This document shows positions 3,616 through 23,016 of a stretch of 23,404 nt of DNA, piece by piece. This DNA comes from a virus. The notes below the pieces were generated by a model. That model saw only the letters and a list, made by a program, of their open reading frames with translations. It had not been told where the DNA came from and searched no databases. Numbering within the stretch: position 1 is the first letter of the stretch; every line of letters begins with the position of its first letter. The stretch is taken from the IMG/VR virus record IMGVR_UViG_3300030104_003913, positions 1 through 23,404 of that record. One strand, written 5' to 3'. A program made the translations under genes and the position numbers.

Positions 3616-6600
3616 ATGGCATTAATAGTTAAAGATAGAGTTAAAGAAACCACAACAACAACAGGTACAGGTACGCTAACATTAGCAGGAGCAGTTAATG
3701 GCTTTCAAAGCTTTAGTGCAATTGGCAATGGTAACACAACCTATTATTGTATCACTGATGGATCAGGCAATAACGCGTGGGAAGTAGGTATTGGTACTTA
3801 TACTCTTTCAGGAACAACACTAGCAAGAACAACTATATTAAGTTCAAGTAACTCAGGTAATGCCATAACATTAGCCGCAGGAACACATAATGTGTTTACA
3901 ACTTATGGCGCTGATCGCAGTAGTTTTGCGACAGAAGGATTACGATTACCATTTACAGCAAGCGGAGCAATAACAGCAGGCTCTCCTGTTGCTCGTAACT
4001 CTGATGGTACTATGCAAGATATTGCAACCACAACATCAACAACAACTAAGAACGGAAACTTTGGCTCACCATCCAATTTCCAATTTGAAAATGGAGCTGC
4101 TTTTAATGCAGATAATGGAGATATAGTTGTTGGTATAAATGATCCAGATAACAGCAGTTATTGGACAGGCATAGTAGTTCAGACAGCGGCAAATGGAGAT
4201 ATAACTGTTGGCTCTCGATATGTTTTTACATCAGATGATCAGCATGGCTACGGAGATTTAATATGCAGACATAAAAGCAGTGGTTCAGGGAATGGAACAG
4301 ACTTTGATGGTTATTTTGAAGTGCATAAAGATTATTCGAATTGGTTAACCTATGGTCATTTTACAGTAAGTGGAACAGTAATAACAGTAGGTGGATCAAG
4401 ACAAAATATTAATAACTATTCTAATACAATAACTGTTGGATGGACTGCTTCTAATCCACATAATAATACAATGAATGTGGCATTTATTCACAATGGTAAT
4501 CAAAGCCAAGTCAAATTCTCATCAGTTAATCCAAGTGGTACTGGTTTTACAAACCAAGATGATTTTGTTGTAACTAATGGCGCAGGCACAACTGGATATG
4601 TTCAAATGTGTTACGCTCCAACAAGCTATAATTGTCATATTTTTTATAACGACAGCAGTAACTATACTGTCGAAACTTATGCAAAAGAAAATGGATCACA
4701 ATATATGAGTGGTGGTTATACAACGAGTGCGTGGTATACTTCACAAGTAAACTCTCCTAATTGTTCTTATTGGGATTCAAATATTGAAAGAGTAGTATTG
4801 TTTTATGGCACTAATGGTAATGCAATTAGAGGTATTCAATTCACATCAACAACTGCCGCAGGTTCAACTTCTTCAAATGACACAGAATTAATAACAGGAA
4901 TATCAGGCGCTTATTATGATTCTAAACAATCAAAATGTTCTTTTGATTCAACAAATAATAAAGGGTATTATTGTTATAATGACGCAGGCGGATCGTCAGG
5001 TAATGTTAAATTAGCTGAAATAAATAGCGACACAGGAAGCTTATCAGTATCATCTACATCAACACTTATTGCGACAGGCACTTATACAGGAATAAATAGC
5101 TATATTAATTATTTTTATAATAGCTTTAGACAAATGCATAGTCCATTTTTTAGAACATGGAACAGCAGTTATGTTTATGTTACTCGCTTATTTAGCGTTA
5201 GCTCTTCTACATCATCAAATATTGCTAACTATCTTGGGATAGCGCAAAACACAGTAGCGGATGGCGAAACAGTTTATATAAATGTAGAGGGTAGTGTTTC
5301 CGAACAAAGTGGCTTAACGCCATTATCAAAATATTATGTTCAGGATAATGGAAGCTTATCTACTACAAGTTCTGATTATTATGCAGGCAAAGCTTTATCA
5401 GCAACACAACTATTAATGAACCAAGACAGTGGAAGCAGTGGAAGTGGTGTAACTTTAACTTTAGCAAGTGGAGAAAGTGTAACAGCAGGAGATGCTGTTG
5501 GAGTTAATAGTTCTGGTGAAGCTATAAAAGCAATATCTGCAACTTCAAGCACTTTAACTACAGGCACAGCAACAGAAGTCTGGGGAAGCACACAAACAAA
5601 TAACAATACAAATGGTAACTATGTCGGAACACTAACGGGCAATATTTATATCACAGCTCGTCATCAATATGGCTATGCAAAACTAATTGCAGGAACTTTA
5701 GCAAGTGATGGAACAATTACTTATGGCTCGGCAGTAACTCTTAGTGATAGTAGCGGATCAAGTGCTGTTACAGAAATGAAGAATTACTATGGAGATACTT
5801 CTGTAGTGTGGAATATAATGGATGGCACTATAAAACATTATGCGTATTCAGTTTCTGGAACAACATTAACTCAACAAGCAACCACAACAACTTCTAGTGT
5901 CTATCAAGGTGATAGTTGCTATCTTATGTTGTCAGGAATAATGACAGGCTCATCTACTCTTTGGGGTGGATTTGGAAGTGGAGCAAGTGGTGAATATGAT
6001 TGTAGTTATATGGTTTACACTAAAGGAACGGCTTGGGCGGATCATGGTATATACATCAGACCTATTTATCATGGTGATACAAGTAATTCAGGTTATACCA
6101 TAGGTTTCGGAAGTGAATATACTGTAAGATCAGGATATGGATGGACTACCTATCCAACAGCAGGATCATTGCAAGCAGGAAATTGCGCAGTATGGAATGA
6201 AACAGATGGTCAGATCGTTGTAAGCATGAGAACATCAGGATTTGATGGTGGAACCGTCTATGTAAAATCATATAAAAATAATAGTTCAAGCGCAAGTGCA
6301 GGTTTTGCTGCTAATGATGGAAGTAACAGTGAACTTGATTTAACTGCTAGTAGTGGAAATAATGGCAGAAGTGCTGAAACAGGTATTTTTGATATGACCT
6401 GGCATAAACAAGATAACAAGATTGTTTGTTTTGGAGTGCGTGGTGGATCAGAGGGAACGAACCCTTATGGTAATGTTGGATGGACTATAGATTGTAATTC
6501 AGGCGCAATTCCATCAATTGCTAAATCAGACGCTATTGCAACAGCTCCAACAACTTTAAATGACGCTAAATGGTTTAAATGTGTTTATAGCGACACATCA

Positions 6601-7101
6601 AAAGAAATATATTGCATACAGGCTTATGACGCGGATAGCGGAACATCAGATGACGCGCTGTATTTTCAAGCTGTAACATTATCAAGCAATGATATTACAA
6701 TGAGTGATTGGTCAGTTAAGGCAGTTGAAGCGTCAGGATTGACAACTGATTTTGCTAATTATAATTGTGGTTCAAATTTAATTGTTGATCCAACAACTAA
6801 CCTTTGTGTTTTACAATATTTTAATGAAAATACGAATTATTATACTTCAGCTAAAGCATTTGGATATATATTCACAGACGGAAGTGGTGGTTATATAGGC
6901 GCTAGTCAAACATCTGCTTCAAGCGGAGATATAACAGTAAATGTAATAGGGCAAACAGACGCTAATCAAACAGGATTAACAGTTGGCAGTAAGGTTTATT
7001 ATGATAGTTCAACAGGCGCATTTACTTCAACATCTACAAACAACTTAGAAGTTGGATTAGCTTTATCAGCAACACAATTTTTAATTAACAAACAACCATA
7101 G
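3616..7101 (+). CDS. large fibre/spike protein with two propeller-like modules
   Basis: Probable virion fibre or spike of 1161 aa. The N-terminus (about 1-105; [20 protein letters not shown]) is a recognisable attachment region found at the start of many marine phage fibres. Two large modules follow, each opening with a similar strand: [19 protein letters not shown] at about 114-132 and [20 protein letters not shown] from about 613. Each closes with a similar cap, [20 protein letters not shown] (ending near 597) and a counterpart ending [12 protein letters not shown] at the C-terminus. In between are loose repeats rich in Gly, Ser, Thr, Asn and Tyr that resemble the beta-propeller-like repeats of marine phage tail proteins. 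It starts directly after the terminase stop (TAA then ATG), with no clear ribosome binding site. The place between terminase and portal suggests either a head-associated or a tail fibre. Receptor and enzymatic activity are unknown. Confidence 0.75.
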
Positions 7102-17579: not shown

Positions 17580-18211
17580 GTATAACCTATCCATTATCAG
17601 TTCCTAATACTACTAGTTTTGCTTTAGTCAGAATGTTAGGAGTAAGCAGTACAGGTCAGACTGTTTCACCATTTACTCAAACTACACAACAATATCAATG
17701 GGCAGGACAATATTGGGAGGCAGATATAACGACTATTCCTCTTAATCGCGCTCAATCAGCTGAATGGGAGGCTTTCTTTTTAAAGTTAAAAGGAACTTTT
17801 GGCACATTCTATCTACAACCTGACCCTAATTCCCTCACTAACCAAGGCACTAACGCATCCTCTCCCGGTTCTCCTACCATTAATGGCGCTCACAGCGCTA
17901 ATATTTCCTCATTATCTTTAACAGGCGCTACAGGCGGTCAGACCAATTATTTCAAAGCATCAGATTATATTAGTATCGGCACAGGAACCTCTAAACAGTT
18001 ATTTAAAGTTTTATCCGATGCAAATACTGATGGCGGAGGAAATGTTACAGTCGATATATTCCCACGATTAAGAACAGCTTTATCAGGTGGAGAGAGTGTA
18101 ACGACAAGTAACTGCACAGGTGTCTTCCGATTAGTTAGTAATGAAATCACATGGACTGTAAATCATCAAAGTTTATATAGCTTAAGCTTTAGCTGTCGCG
18201 AGGCACTATAA
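17576..18211 (+). CDS. distal-tail minor protein
   Basis: Probable distal tail protein of 211 aa just after the tape measure. Visible signals are an N-terminal beta strand set, WAGQYWEADITTIPLNRAQS followed by AEWEAFFLKLKGTFGTFYLQ, then a middle beta-domain (HSANISSLSLTGATGG, ASDYISIGTG), VTVDIFPRLRTAL, and a closing strand TWTVNHQSLYSLSF with a C-terminal CREAL. This is the pattern of minor tail proteins I know at this position in marine and alphaproteobacterial phages: one half embraces the tail and the middle domain is an Ig- or OB-like insert. The precise family name is uncertain. It is coupled at both ends (ATGA, TAATG). Confidence 0.7.
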   Translation: MSITYPLSVPNTTSFALVRMLGVSSTGQTVSPFTQTTQQYQWAGQYWEADITTIPLNRAQSAEWEAFFLKLKGTFGTFYLQPDPNSLTNQGTNASSPGSPTINGAHSANISSLSLTGATGGQTNYFKASDYISIGTGTSKQLFKVLSDANTDGGGNVTVDIFPRLRTALSGGESVTTSNCTGVFRLVSNEITWTVNHQSLYSLSFSCREAL

Positions 18212-19182
18212 TGGCTCGGACTATTGATTTTCAGACTCAAATAAACGCACAATTAGTAGAGCCTTTTTATGCTGTTCATTTAGATTTTTCAGGAAGCGTT
18301 ACTAGAAATGTATATACAGAAGTATTAGCTACAGGAGATGGCAATAGATACTCATTAAACAATACTCAACAATTAGTTGTTAATGTTGCGAGAGGAAATA
18401 CTATTGTTTTTGATCAGAGCGACAGCTCTAACGCAGGACATCCACTATTATTAGCATCAACATTAGATGGAACGACTTATTCTACAGGTGTTACAACGAC
18501 AGGCACTCCGGGTAACGCAGGAGCTAAGACTGAATGGGTTGTTGATAGCACAGCTCCTAATACTTTATATTATAAATGCGGCTTACATTCAGGAATGGGT
18601 GGAGAGATAAATATTACTGACCCTGCTCTTAATTTATGGAGTGGATATGGCGAGATAACTTATGACGGCATAACTTATATAGGCGCAGGTGAGTTCGGAC
18701 AAATATCAGAAATAAAACAAGAAGAACAAATTAAAGCAAATGGCATTAATTTATCCTTATCCGGTATACCTAACGATTTAGTTGCATCAGCTTTATATGA
18801 AGAATATCAAAATAGAACTGCTAAAGTTTTATTTGGTGTTTTAACAGATGGTATATTAGTACAAAACCCATACACCTTGTTTATTGGTAAAATGGATGTA
18901 ATGACAATCCAACAGGGTGGTGAAACATCTTTAATTTCACTCACAGTAGAAAATTCATTAATAGATTTAAAAAGAACGAGACGACTGCTTTACACAGATG
19001 AAGACCAAAAGGCATTACATACAGGTGATGCTAGTTTAAGGTTTGTTGAAGCTTTACAACAAAAAGAAGTGTTGTGGGGTGTTCCATATAGTGTTGTAGC
19101 GCCAACAGTTTCAGCTCCATCGCAAGCAGAATTAGATAAAATTTTAGAAGACTTCCAATCAGGTAAGTATTACCCGTTTTAA
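18211..19182 (+). CDS. tail hub protein, DUF2163-like, with cupredoxin-like insert
   Basis: Probable baseplate hub component of 323 aa. The outer parts fit the DUF2163-like hub proteins of phages and gene transfer agents: an N-terminal VEPFYAVHLDF (17-27), LWSGYGEITYDGITYIGAGE (142-161), QIKANGINLSLSGIP, then RTRRLLYTDEDQKALHTGD and FVEALQQKEVLWG near the end. Between about 29 and 138 lies an extra domain, beta-rich and ending YYKCGLHSGMGGEI. Its GHP (His77) and C-x2-H-x2-M (Cys123, His126, Met129) recall type-1 copper sites of cupredoxins such as plastocyanin. Whether copper is bound is unknown; C-to-M spacing is shorter than in plastocyanin. The insert could be a surface or receptor-facing domain. 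The start is a TAATG overlap. Confidence 0.75.
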   Translation: MARTIDFQTQINAQLVEPFYAVHLDFSGSVTRNVYTEVLATGDGNRYSLNNTQQLVVNVARGNTIVFDQSDSSNAGHPLLLASTLDGTTYSTGVTTTGTPGNAGAKTEWVVDSTAPNTLYYKCGLHSGMGGEINITDPALNLWSGYGEITYDGITYIGAGEFGQISEIKQEEQIKANGINLSLSGIPNDLVASALYEEYQNRTAKVLFGVLTDGILVQNPYTLFIGKMDVMTIQQGGETSLISLTVENSLIDLKRTRRLLYTDEDQKALHTGDASLRFVEALQQKEVLWGVPYSVVAPTVSAPSQAELDKILEDFQSGKYYPF

Positions 19183-19183
19183 C

Positions 19184-19603
19184 ATGAACGATTTAGAAAC
19201 ATTTATAGCTCAAAAATTACACGAACCATTTAAATATGGTGTGAATGACTGCATTACATTTTCAGCAGAAGCAATAAGATTAGCAACAGGAATAGATCAT
19301 TTAAAAGATATAAAAAAATGGAATAGTGAAATGCAAGCGAGCAAATTATTAGATAAAATGGGTTATAAAAGCTTAACTGATGTTATTGACAGTCGGTTTC
19401 GCCAACACACCAATATTAATAAGTTACAAGATGGCGATGTGGTAACAGCAGAGCAAACATTAGATAAAAGGTTTAATGAATTAGCGTTAATTTATTATCA
19501 AGGCTATTTATTAGGACCTGCTAAAGAAGGTCTGCATAAATGTGAAGTTAATGAAGGTAAAAATTTTTTTAATGTAAGAAGTTTGAGGTTAGGATATGCC
19601 TGA
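19184..19603 (+). CDS. DUF6950 / NlpC-P60-like tail-tip protein
   Basis: Probable tail-tip protein of 139 aa at the place where lambda K and gene transfer agent NlpC/P60 peptidases lie. The N-terminal pattern FKYGVNDCITFSAEAIRLAT followed by GID is that of DUF6950 proteins, relatives of NlpC/P60 cysteine peptidases, with candidate catalytic Cys23. GDVVT and YQGYLLGPAKEGLHK mark the later strands; an obvious catalytic His in the usual G-H context is not clear, so activity is uncertain. If active it would help local opening of peptidoglycan during DNA entry. The end overlaps the J-like gene by 8 bases. Confidence 0.75.
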   Translation: MNDLETFIAQKLHEPFKYGVNDCITFSAEAIRLATGIDHLKDIKKWNSEMQASKLLDKMGYKSLTDVIDSRFRQHTNINKLQDGDVVTAEQTLDKRFNELALIYYQGYLLGPAKEGLHKCEVNEGKNFFNVRSLRLGYA

Positions 19604-21296
19604 TTTTGCAGCATGGTTATCAGCGCTAATAGTAGATGCAGGTGCGGCTATAGCGTCGGCATTCGGAGCGACAGGAAAATTAGCTACAGTTATATCTTGG
19701 GCGGCTCAGGCAGTTATAGTGGGAGTGCCATTATATTTCACAGCTAGAGCAATGATGCCTAAAGTTGATATGACCGGACTATTAGGTCGAGGTACTTCTC
19801 ATAGAAACCCAATAACATCTCGCAAAATTATCTATGGAAGAGCTAAAGTAGGCGGTCCAATATTATATATGGCAGAGGCAGAATATACTCAGTCAGGAAC
19901 ACCAGGAATGGATAGAGGTAATCTTTATGTATTGATTGGATTAGCCGGACATCAATGTGCTGAGATAGAAACAGTTTATTTTAATGATGATGTTTTAACA
20001 ATAAACGGATCAGGTGTGGTTACTTCTCCATCTCGTTATTATCCTAATAGTGAAAGTAGAGCTACAATATTTACAGGATTAATTGGGACAACTACTCAAT
20101 ATATTGGAACTATTTGGGGTAATAATACTGATTTAGATAATGCTACCGACAAATTTAAGGGGATCTGCTGTTTACAGGTTATATTAGGTTATGATCAAGA
20201 AGTTTGGGTCGGAGGTATACCGGCAATTAGTGCAATAGTTAAAGGTAACGACCAACTATATGACCCACGCGATGCTTCAACAGGGTGGAGTGAAAATCCT
20301 GCTATTATATTGCGAGATTATTTAACCAATACAGTTTATGGCATGGGAATTAGCGCAAGTATGGTAGATGATACTTTAATAAGTGCGGCGGCTAATGTTT
20401 GTGATGAAACAGTTAGTTTAGATGGTGGAGGAACACAGAAAAGATATACTTGCAATGGCACTTTAGATACAGCGCATAATTTTCAGCAAAATATTGAAAC
20501 TATTTTAAATAGTATGTCAGGATTTATGGTCTTTAGTAATGGCAAATTTAAAGTTTATGCAGGCGAATATAGAACGCCTACTGTAACGATAACAGATGAC
20601 GATTTAGCCGGTCCTGTTAATGTAATTGGCAAGCCAAGTAAAAGAGAAGCAATTAATATTGTTAGAGGTGTCGCAATAGGAGCGTGGAGTAATTATCAAC
20701 CTACATCATATCCTGAAGTTCGTGACTCAGCGGCTATAACAGCAGATGGCGCAGAATTAGTTGCACAATTACCTCTACCAATGACTGATGATAGCACTAT
20801 GGCTCAACGATTAGCTAAAATATTACTTAAAAGATCACGACAGCAGATGACTTTAAACCTTAGTTTAAAATTAACTAAATTTGCTCTCGAACCGGGTGAC
20901 ACCTGCTCAGTTACATTAGAGAGTTTAGGCATTAAAAATAAAGTATTTGAAATAATGCAATGGACCTTCGGAACTAGTGGGTCAGGAGAAGGATTAGCAT
21001 TAACTGTTGATGTTCAGTTAAGAGAGACAGAAAGCGCTGTTTATGATTGGTCCACTAGCGAACAAAACGACCCTGTTGCTGTTCCACAAGTTATAATAAC
21101 TAACCCAACATCAGTAGATGCTCCTGCGTTTGCTCTAACGCAGACACAAGGATTATCAGAAGACGGCACTATTATAGATCAAGTAGAGGTTAATATAACT
21201 GACCCTACTAATAATAAGTTTGTTTATGAATATGCAATTGAACACAAAGAGTCGACTGCATCTAATTATGAAACCACATCAGTATTAAGAGAATAA
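19596..21296 (+). CDS. tail tip J-like protein, N-terminal part (gene interrupted)
   Basis: Host-specificity/tail-tip protein of the J family, here 566 aa. An N-terminal hydrophobic region (about 8-52: ALIVDAGAAIASAFGA, then AAQAVIVGVPLYFTA) precedes the J core: RGTSHRNPITSRKIIYGRAK (65-84), RGNLYVLIGLAGHQC, ENPAIILRDYLTNTVYGMGI, the IETILNSMSGFMVFSNGKFK region, and FALEPGDTCSVTLESLGIKN. Near residue 507 an FN3 domain opens (IDQVEVNITDPT, FVYEYAIEHKESTASNYETT) but the chain ends at SVLRE with strands still missing. Those strands and the rest of J appear at 22048. The protein is therefore the front half of a split J. Its stop codon TAA seems to be supplied by the inserted DNA. Confidence 0.88.
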   Translation: MPDFAAWLSALIVDAGAAIASAFGATGKLATVISWAAQAVIVGVPLYFTARAMMPKVDMTGLLGRGTSHRNPITSRKIIYGRAKVGGPILYMAEAEYTQSGTPGMDRGNLYVLIGLAGHQCAEIETVYFNDDVLTINGSGVVTSPSRYYPNSESRATIFTGLIGTTTQYIGTIWGNNTDLDNATDKFKGICCLQVILGYDQEVWVGGIPAISAIVKGNDQLYDPRDASTGWSENPAIILRDYLTNTVYGMGISASMVDDTLISAAANVCDETVSLDGGGTQKRYTCNGTLDTAHNFQQNIETILNSMSGFMVFSNGKFKVYAGEYRTPTVTITDDDLAGPVNVIGKPSKREAINIVRGVAIGAWSNYQPTSYPEVRDSAAITADGAELVAQLPLPMTDDSTMAQRLAKILLKRSRQQMTLNLSLKLTKFALEPGDTCSVTLESLGIKNKVFEIMQWTFGTSGSGEGLALTVDVQLRETESAVYDWSTSEQNDPVAVPQVIITNPTSVDAPAFALTQTQGLSEDGTIIDQVEVNITDPTNNKFVYEYAIEHKESTASNYETTSVLRE

Positions 21297-21297
21297 A

Positions 21298-21489
21298 ATG
21301 GCAAAAGCAACAGTCAGCGAGGTAGATAAGAAGGTAGCTGTTATAGAACAGAAATTAACAGACCACATTGTATCTTGTGAAGATATAGGAGAGAGGACTC
21401 TCGACAGAGTTAAGAGATTGGAGATGATTTTATTAACAGCTACATCATCTTCTTTAATTTTACTCCTTAAACTAGCATTTTTTAGTTAA
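21298..21489 (+). CDS. small coiled-coil membrane protein, XhlA/holin-like
   Basis: Probable lysis-associated membrane protein of 63 aa. Residues 1-42 are charged with heptad-like spacing (VSEVDKKVAVIEQKLTDHIV, GERTLDRVKRLEMI), followed by one C-terminal hydrophobic helix (about 45-62: LTATSSSLILLLKLAFF). A soluble coiled coil plus a C-terminal anchor is the plan of XhlA-type holin partners. It starts two bases after the stop of the J-like N-part, with AAGAGA just upstream, and precedes a GTA-type holin gene. It might instead be an antiholin or a tail-associated membrane protein. Similarity is architectural only. Confidence 0.65.
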   Translation: MAKATVSEVDKKVAVIEQKLTDHIVSCEDIGERTLDRVKRLEMILLTATSSSLILLLKLAFFS

Positions 21490-21622
21490 ACGCCACAGGA
21501 GTCGATATAAGGCTCACACAAGCGTTTATATATATTTATATTAATTAGTATTACTTAGGCTCTGTATGCGCATTTGTGCGCGTTTGTGAGTCTTTTTTTT
21601 ATCAAATTAGAGGTAATTTATT
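21490..21622 (+). other. Non-coding stretch between the two lysis genes
   Basis: No gene is seen in these 133 bases. They hold an AGGAG at 21497-21501 without a start codon after it, an AT-rich tract (21525-21555), a terminator-like hairpin, and the holin ribosome binding site AGAGGT (21609-21614). A second copy of AGGCTC, extended as AGGCTCACA at 21510-21518, can also pair with the terminator's 3' arm TGTGAGTCT, so two mutually exclusive folds are possible. Confidence 0.6.
21557..21600 (+). terminator. Rho-independent terminator inside the lysis insert
   Basis: ATGCGCA pairs with TGCGCGT around TTTG (one G.T pair), and an outer stem AGGCTC with GAGTCT (one G.T pair) extends it across a small internal loop. 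Eight T follow directly. This is a conventional terminator layout and stands out in AT-rich DNA. It lies upstream of the holin and the J C-terminal part, so both would be reached only by readthrough or a local promoter that I cannot identify. Confidence 0.8.
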
Positions 21623-22051
21623 ATGATTAGCATTATTGGCTCACTATTGGGATTTAGCACTTCATTTGTGCCTAAAATTCTCGATCACTTCACTGAAAAG
21701 CAAAAATTTAAGAACCAAATGGCATTAATGCAGGCTCAAAGCAAAATGAAAGTAAGTGAAGCTAATGCTCTTGCTAAAATTCAGCAAAATAAATCTATTT
21801 ATGCTCATGACGAGGCAATAATAAAAAATACTTCATCAGGTTTTATTAGTAACTTAAGATCATCGGTCAGACCTATCTTAACTTACTGTTTTTTTCTAAC
21901 TTACCTAGCATTTAAGGTCGTTATTATAGTTATAGCGATACAAGAAGGCGATGAGGCTTTAAAAGCTATAAGAGATAGCTATTCAGAGGAAGATTTTGGA
22001 CTCTTATCCATTTGTGTTTCATTTTGGTTCGGGTCGAGGCTCCAAAAATGA
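21623..22051 (+). CDS. holin, GTA 3-TM type
   Basis: Probable holin of 142 aa, which forms lesions in the inner membrane so that endolysin reaches the cell wall. It matches the GTA_holin_3TM-type pattern: an N-terminal hydrophobic segment (ISIIGSLLGFSTSFVPKILD), a charged helical linker (KFKNQMALMQAQSKMKVSEA), SSVRPILTYCFFLTYLAFKV followed by VIIVIA (about 81-106), and the hallmark ending SFWFGSR. The SRL-Q-K C-terminus is a natural end, so the gene is complete although it abuts the J remnant. AGAGGT precedes ATG 21623 by 8 bases. The stop overlaps the next start as ATGA. No endolysin is in the window. Confidence 0.85.
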   Translation: MISIIGSLLGFSTSFVPKILDHFTEKQKFKNQMALMQAQSKMKVSEANALAKIQQNKSIYAHDEAIIKNTSSGFISNLRSSVRPILTYCFFLTYLAFKVVIIVIAIQEGDEALKAIRDSYSEEDFGLLSICVSFWFGSRLQK

Positions 22052-23016
22052 CAAGATGCTTAATAGGACCGGTTATATCCGGCAAAACATACGATATTAG
22101 ATGTAAAGCAAGAAATAACGCAGGTTATGAGTCAGCATTCAGTTCGGTTTCGCAAATTACTATAAATGCTAATACAAACCCACCAAGTGCGCCTTCTAGT
22201 TTATCCGCTACAAGCGATCCAATAGCAATAGTCTTAAAATGGACCAACCCTAGTGATAAAGACCTAAAGGGAGTGGAGATTTATTACTCAACATCTAGTG
22301 GCGGCACATTTAACCTATTGGGCTCGATAGATGGAACACCCGGACAACAAGAATATAACTTGAATTATGATACTGCCTTTAGTTTAAACCAAACCTACTA
22401 CTTTAAGGTTAGAGCGGTTAATAATTCAGGTGTTGCTAGCGCATACACCGCAGAGGTATCAGCTCAATTCAGCACAATAGCGACAAGTGATGTCACTATG
22501 AACGCTATATCTAATATATCAGGGTCCATTGTTAGCTCTAACGCATCAGCTGAGTCGAGTGTTCAGGATGCAGTCACCTATTCTGCTAACGGAACAGGAA
22601 GTGATAGCACTACTTTTAATGGTTATATGGCGGCAGAGATAACATTAGGAGCTATTGACAGCTCTATTGCCGGTTTTTTAATTAACGCAAACGCATTAGC
22701 TAGCAAAAGGACTGTTCTTGCTACGAAATATGCTTATGCCATAGTTCTTCAAAAATTACCGACTAACGCATATTGGACTAAAGCTAACGCATCAGGAAAT
22801 TATGCTGTGTTCTTAGGAACAGGCGATGCCACCGGACAAAGCTCGACAGAAGGTATACAGGGTAGCTTTAGCTCATCATTTTTAGATGATGCAACAGGAG
22901 TTACCGGCACGACAGGGTCTAAATATGGATTATTTATCTATGAGCCTACTGAAACGACAGACCAATATTGGATATTCGGTGGAACAGGACTAACTATCAC
23001 GGAGTTAAAACGATGA
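22048..23016 (+). CDS. tail tip J-like protein, C-terminal part (restarted after insert)
   Basis: C-terminal portion of the J-like protein, 322 aa from ATG 22048. It opens in the middle of an FN3 domain (CLIGPVISGKTYDIRCKARN, then NAGYESAFSSVSQITI), continuing the half domain that ends the 19596-21296 product. A complete FN3 follows (about 46-140: PPSAPSSLSATSDPIAIVLK, TYYFKVRAVNNSGVASAYT). The last part (about 150-322) is a beta-rich tip domain that may face the receptor, ending FGGTGLTITELKR like other J proteins. GAGG lies 8 bases before the ATG, which overlaps the holin stop (ATGA). A TTG at 22012 is an alternative start but lies inside the holin gene. It is not decayed: no stop or frameshift is visible over 323 codons. 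Confidence 0.82.
   Translation: MTRCLIGPVISGKTYDIRCKARNNAGYESAFSSVSQITINANTNPPSAPSSLSATSDPIAIVLKWTNPSDKDLKGVEIYYSTSSGGTFNLLGSIDGTPGQQEYNLNYDTAFSLNQTYYFKVRAVNNSGVASAYTAEVSAQFSTIATSDVTMNAISNISGSIVSSNASAESSVQDAVTYSANGTGSDSTTFNGYMAAEITLGAIDSSIAGFLINANALASKRTVLATKYAYAIVLQKLPTNAYWTKANASGNYAVFLGTGDATGQSSTEGIQGSFSSSFLDDATGVTGTTGSKYGLFIYEPTETTDQYWIFGGTGLTITELKR

Follow-up and report, generated by a model that had tools for sequence, protein, structure and literature searches.

How can a phage keep a tail-tip protein whose gene is interrupted, inside a single folded domain, by two genes of lysis type? This question is raised by the 23,404-nucleotide (nt) stretch of DNA analysed here (IMG/VR record IMGVR_UViG_3300030104_003913, positions 1 to 23,404; hereafter the window), a 23.4-kb viral contig carrying terminase, portal, capsid and tail genes, in which the split sits at the last tail genes. 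Its terminase is 50% and its portal 36–41% identical to those of CRP-822-type roseophages, the closest cultured relatives. An earlier note on this DNA had proposed that a J-like host-recognition gene is divided within an FN3 domain into an N-terminal piece (J-N, 19596–21296) and a C-terminal piece (J-C, from an ATG at 22048 to 23016), with a small membrane protein (21298–21489) and a holin (21623–22051) between them. These coordinates and frames are correct, as are the J-N terminus SVLRE and the J-C beginning MTRCLIGPVISGK. The split is genuine, old and conserved; it stems neither from misassembly nor from recent damage to the gene. We consider it probable that a lysis cassette fissioned an ancestral J and that the result is a two-chain tail tip joined through fragment complementation of its first FN3 domain (FN3-1): both halves are homologous to one protein, the split has a single origin and is conserved, both halves are under purifying selection, the same ATGA overlap occurs in all members, and the halves stay matched despite exchange of the holin between them. 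The two pieces and their parts are as follows.

19596..21296, + strand: J-N, N-terminal piece of a lambda-J-like tail-tip hub protein, 566 amino acids (aa), ending with strands A-B-C-C' of FN3-1.
21108..21293 (approximate), + strand: first half of the split FN3 (A, B, C, C'), placed by alignment to intact homologues and the AlphaFold2 strand map of the uninterrupted homologue L014.
22048..23016, + strand: J-C, C-terminal piece of the tail-tip protein, 322 aa, matching phrog_31 central tail fiber J (E 5e-16).
22048..22170 (approximate boundary), + strand: second half of the split FN3 (E, F, G), placed by alignment to intact homologues and the L014 model.
22180..22467, + strand: FN3-2, complete (PF00041, E 2e-7; model strands 50–140; Z 12–13 to FN3 domains).
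22567..23013, + strand: C-terminal beta domain of J-C, a candidate receptor-binding domain (model residues 174–321), exchanged between lineages.

Judged by sequence and predicted structure, J-N and J-C represent the two portions of a single lambda-J-like tail-tip protein. J-N matches Phage-tail_3 (PF13550, E 9e-10), phrog_5616 tail fiber (E 6e-75) and phrog_31 central tail fiber J (E 9e-38), and so contains the Phage-tail_3 hub region that the lambda gpJ family requires; of the two consecutive FN3 domains that follow the hub, FN3-1 is shared between J-N and J-C and FN3-2 lies whole in J-C. The single polypeptide chain of that family is replaced by a separate stop and start in 27 members. J-C gave no tblastn match among cultured phages (INPHARED), and no relatives of it were found in GTDB genomes. 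Modelled alone (pLDDT, the predicted local distance difference test score, 75), J-C has a half FN3 with short strands only, then a complete FN3-2, a linker predicted with low confidence and, at the C terminus, a beta domain, and its best structural match in the PDB is lambda gpJ. The C-terminal domain found no specific fold match in this search, which was dominated by FN3 and in which the domain was not modelled alone.

Where the cut falls within FN3-1 can be read from homologues that lack it. These comprise the metagenomic L004, L010, L011, L013–L015 and L018 and, among cultured phages, the Roseobacter phages CRP-406, 811, 821, 831 and CRP-6 and the Pelagibacter phages HTVC026P, 112P and 202P; each has a single J of 719–1217 aa, and L013, whose 5' end is cut off by its contig, also reads through the site. 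Alignment of the intact proteins to J-N runs through about residue 557–562 and then picks up at J-C residue 3–10, so that the end of J-N and the beginning of J-C occupy adjacent alignment positions in FN3-1 and the new ends add few extra residues. That J-C might belong to a different protein from J-N is refuted by these single uninterrupted proteins, which align with both halves. An AlphaFold2 model of intact L014 (pLDDT 91), which resembles FN3 pairs including that of lambda gpJ, has strands at residues 11–20, 26–35, 42–50, 57–61, 65–68, 76–85 and 94–99, and the cut falls between 61/62 and 63, in the C'-E loop. Because the cut maps to this loop, strands A-B-C-C' are assigned to J-N and E-F-G to J-C, and both sheets of the sandwich would therefore need strands from both chains.

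A chimeric assembly, which the earlier note had named as a possible refutation, or a recently broken J in a dead phage, would explain the window more simply, given that single contigs may be chimeric and that the window is a 23-kb fragment. When IMG/VR was searched with J-C, J-N and alignments of each, both junctions and the same four-gene order were recovered in 26 further contigs from many metagenomes, and the left junction only in two more. The chimera is refuted by the recurrence of these junctions in many samples, and decay fails on the same contigs; the single split clade in two trees and the low rates of protein change in both pieces also count against artefact and decay, which we regard as scarcely credible.

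The split members form about ten lineages at <80% J-N identity, the most divergent with 41% J-N identity. Among 73 newly fetched J-N loci, a complete J was split whenever J-N identity was at least 41% and continuous whenever it was at most 38%, and in every one of the more distant relatives examined the FN3 is uninterrupted. Two maximum-likelihood trees (15–17 unsplit rows) place every split member on one branch with 100/100 support, a topology that fits one origin by fission. Purifying selection acts on each half-domain: the ratio of nonsynonymous to synonymous substitution rates (dN/dS) is mostly 0.0–0.30 and well below 1 in nearly all pairs, with 0.59 in one comparison of the 40-residue J-C half. 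In gene-fission terms, relatives with a continuous gene and a cut inside a domain are both found for J, and both pieces are kept under selection. A third, divergent split subclade (L257, L258 and L260) has a 121-aa holin-like protein, a J-N tail DREF(N/T)T and an insert of 518–531 nt. A tyrosine integrase is also encoded on split-clade contigs, joined in L029 by an Erf-type annealing protein (L029 10540–11619 and 14372–14941; L032 11184–12524), genes that fit a temperate, highly recombining lifestyle.

What lies between the halves differs among members, and in the window it consists of the following.

21298..21489, + strand: small protein, 63 aa, with an apparent coiled coil and one transmembrane (TM) helix; conserved first gene of the cassette.
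21490..21622, + strand: non-coding class A spacer; its conserved 56-nt element occupies 21504–21559.
21623..22051, + strand: holin-like protein, class A, three TM helices, 142 aa (phrog_6637; weak matches to GTA_holin_3TM and phrog_3427 holin).

Three kinds of cassette occupy the site. Class A, the window type, has a 63-aa gene, a spacer of 111–133 nt and a phrog_6637-type protein of 142–151 aa; class B pairs a 54–55-aa gene with a phrog_3427/GTA_holin_3TM holin of 128–129 aa; and the third kind combines a 52–54-aa gene with a 121-aa relative of the class B holin. These types switch several times over the J-N tree. The earlier note had described a small membrane protein followed by a gene transfer agent (GTA)-type holin; the gene pair stands, and the GTA-type match is weak for the window holin. 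For GTA_holin_3TM (PF11351), L008 of class B reaches the Pfam cut-off (E 5e-14), and L006 of class A (E 6e-5) and the window fall below it. The small protein resembles XhlA-type lysis helpers in layout only, all its family matches being sub-threshold. A lysis role for the cassette is suggested by a clear family match for the class B holin and a weak one for class A. No endolysin was seen beside the cassette among the downstream genes scanned, in a scan that was not exhaustive.

The class A spacer, common to L006, L030, L031, L033, L037–L039, L043 and L045–L050, contains the 56-nt element (CATACAGCA ... TTGATGTTTTACATCAATTAGTATATAAAA), found at this site only among the loci examined. The window lineage has a terminator-like hairpin and T-run at about 21557–21600, ahead of the holin; the spacer gave no consensus fold across lineages as a conserved RNA. 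Relatives of the holin abound in other viral contigs, and none of 80 + 80 holin-relative loci adjoins a J of this family outside the split clade, so a cassette donor was not found there; nor did the unsplit J loci examined contain a homologue of the holin or the small protein.

Could J nevertheless be made continuous after transcription or translation, by a self-splicing intron housing the lysis genes, a split intein or ribosomal bypassing? As the earlier note had claimed, removing 21294–22050 leaves an open frame and a normal FN3 sequence, and the uninterrupted homologues show that no FN3 segment is missing; open reading frames (ORFs) do, moreover, occur in phage introns. Joining of this sort would, however, need conserved signals, and the inserts range from 518 to 775 nt across members, those of 518–558 nt consisting almost entirely of two back-to-back genes and being nearly all coding. 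Their content is exchanged, and no group I or group II intron or credible Rfam match was found in the inserts of the window, L008 and L037. Across members the frame of J-C relative to J-N takes all three values, every member has a stop for J-N and a separate, overlapped start for J-C, and the chains stop within a few residues of the FN3 strands, which leaves no space for intein halves. We hold joining at the RNA or protein level to be very improbable. As candidates in their own right, an intron was rejected after the same three inserts returned only two sub-gathering snoRNA matches, taken as chance, and frameshifting or bypassing was ruled out by the three frames of J-C.

The exchange of cassettes supplies a built-in evolutionary test, since the genes between the halves were swapped several times and the halves stayed matched. 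Pairwise distances were correlated by Mantel and partial Mantel tests, which do not correct for shared ancestry. Distances of the J-C FN3 half correlate with those of the J-N body at r=0.94, of the J-N FN3 half at 0.90 and of the holin at 0.57, and the holin lying between the halves gives correlations of 0.57–0.62; with two more divergent members added, the J-C half values are 0.89 (J-N body), 0.88 (J-N half) and 0.60 (holin). When holin and small protein are controlled, the partial Mantel r for the halves is 0.83–0.86. Individual pairs illustrate this: in L031 and L033 the halves are 98 and 100% identical around holins that are 43% identical, and in L031 and L046 a 99% identical holin is flanked by halves that are 49–51% identical. 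The J-C half tracks the J-N on the far side better than it tracks the adjoining holin, which therefore counts against non-interacting halves.

The serious rival among the alternatives is that J-C has been an independent tail protein since the fission, docking by another surface, with the half-FN3 segments left over or re-purposed. J-N without its half FN3 would remain a complete hub, and the C-terminal domain of J-C is recombined separately from every other part, J-N among them (distance r 0.2–0.37); between the window and L006, for example, this beta domain is 91% identical and J-N 48%. Such exchange is as expected for a receptor-binding module and marks the domain as a candidate for that role. 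An independent J-C does not, however, readily account for FN3 strand sequences and purifying selection kept in both half-domains, for a J-C half that follows J-N better than it follows the neighbouring holin, or for the retention of both pieces in every complete member. Purifying selection and co-segregation argue against this rival, and we judge it unlikely. The same two lines of evidence, selection on both halves and their co-segregation across exchanged holins, lend evolutionary support to the working two-piece FN3 that the earlier note had suggested; from them we infer assembly.

Several observations weigh against a two-chain tip joined through FN3-1. With one representative per lineage (10), the correlation of the halves drops to r=0.73, compared with 0.29 for the J-N half and the holin, and co-segregation could partly reflect shared ancestry, as kinship is ignored in the Mantel test. 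In the close group L008, L009 and L044, the J-C half is discordant with J-N. The class A holin assignment derives from weak matches, and all split members are uncultured contigs.

How would two chains be made from such a locus? Two short signals mark the junctions.

21287..21292, + strand: AAGAGA in the last J-N codons, weak as a ribosome-binding site in the window; AAGGGA or GAGAGA in relatives.
22048..22051, + strand: ATGA, in which the holin stop overlaps the J-C start, in 27/27 members.

On the left, the earlier note had counted two bases between the J-N stop and the next start; there is one, and across split members the small-gene start overlaps the J-N stop by at most 4 bases or lies at most 1 base downstream. 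J-N overruns the ancestral strand by LRD, LRE or ERE, coded by TTAAGGGAT, AAGAGA or GAGAGAG, and these codons in most lineages double as the small gene's ribosome-binding site, a tailoring of the left junction. On the right, the ATGA overlap described for the window is present in every member. The GAGG noted before J-C does occur in the window and is not a general feature, pairing with the anti-Shine–Dalgarno being no better than in shuffled sequence (first 24 members). Because Shine–Dalgarno pairing of J-C is not above this shuffled level, the conserved element of the right junction is the ATGA overlap, and stop–start coupling to the holin is therefore the likely route of J-C translation.

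We propose that J was a single continuous protein in the ancestor of these phages, comprising hub domains, FN3-1, FN3-2 and a C-terminal domain, and that a lysis cassette of two genes inserted once into the C'-E loop of FN3-1, a loop tolerating cuts, making two genes of J. Both chains would now come from one operon, the small gene coupled to J-N through a stop–start overlap and J-C to the holin through ATGA. J-N would bring A-B-C-C', J-C would bring E-F-G together with FN3-2 and the C-terminal domain, and the two would fold jointly into FN3-1 by fragment complementation, so that virions would contain both chains and each tail tip a non-covalent joint where the FN3 cone of lambda gpJ begins. 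Engineered FN3 domains severed in a loop can be rebuilt from their two fragments in this manner; those are systems designed in vitro, unlike the natural case here. On a stricter version we are evenly divided: the joint may be obligate, with FN3-1 existing only as a two-chain complex, the distal chain coupled to the holin such that tip completion and lysis are co-expressed, and the half-FN3 serving as a docking key behind which the receptor-binding end is exchangeable. If the halves do assemble as proposed, the clade would hold a natural, evolving split-FN3 system; a tail-tip receptor complex would be able to cope with a non-covalent joint within the FN3 region that, in lambda, makes the tube-closing cone, and a lysis cassette could become locked within a structural gene.

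Elsewhere in the window, positions 2–1327 encode a ParB_N domain fused with an N6/N4 DNA methylase domain, 3616–7101 a 1161-aa ORF, located between the terminase gene and the portal/capsid genes, whose one match, weak and C-terminal, is to Phage_cement_2, and 18211–19182 a minor-tail-like gene, a segment of which weakly matches the plant-named PF25489 (sub-threshold).

The arrangement had been put forward in the earlier note as belonging to no described family. That needs narrowing, in that gene fission with reassembly is known for phage enzymes, and it holds for tail tips and lysis cassettes: in the open-access literature we found no description of a lysis cassette that divides a domain of a virion protein, or of an insert repeatedly replaced while the halves stay matched. 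Its interest is that a virion protein is maintained as two pieces throughout a clade, the break falling inside one folded domain. The nearest structural counterpart is the lambda central tail fibre J, gpJ (phrog_31; PDB 8xcj, 8iyk, 8k35), which likewise has a Phage-tail_3 hub followed by two consecutive FN3 domains and whose gene likewise comes after the DUF6950 gene and those for minor tail proteins. The lambda FN3 pair that follows the hub forms a closed cone at the end of the tail tube (PMC10721106), and the joint proposed here would for that reason sit where the cone starts. Lambda J and all unsplit relatives examined are one chain, whereas here two chains share FN3-1 and two lysis-type genes lie between their coding sequences; where lambda has a long central fibre, the C-terminal part here consists of a short beta domain. 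The CRP-822-type roseophages CRP-821, CRP-831 and CRP-406 (PMC12629253) share the tail gene order but have a continuous J of 956–971 aa without a lysis gene inside.

Two gene products in place of one are also found in the lateral tail fibres of the T5-like phages DT57C and DT571/2, where LtfA and LtfB, both carrying receptor-binding parts, stand where T5 has a single protein (PMC4728585); those are adjacent fibre proteins for which a branched arrangement was proposed, with no domain divided and no inserted genes. Also comparable are the insertional fissions of Aeh1 nrdA by mobE, of the T4 topoisomerase gene by mobA and of gene 43A/43B in Aeromonas phage 25, with reassembly of the split products shown for NrdA and gp43 (PMC2988022). 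There, as here, a contiguous phage gene is cut in a critical region by inserted sequence. Their inserts are homing endonucleases or untranslated sequence and their products enzymes, whereas the inserts of the present clade code only for a small TM protein and holin-like proteins, with no homing endonuclease of the Aeh1/T4 type: here a lysis-type cassette that has been replaced several times divides a protein of the virion tail tip.

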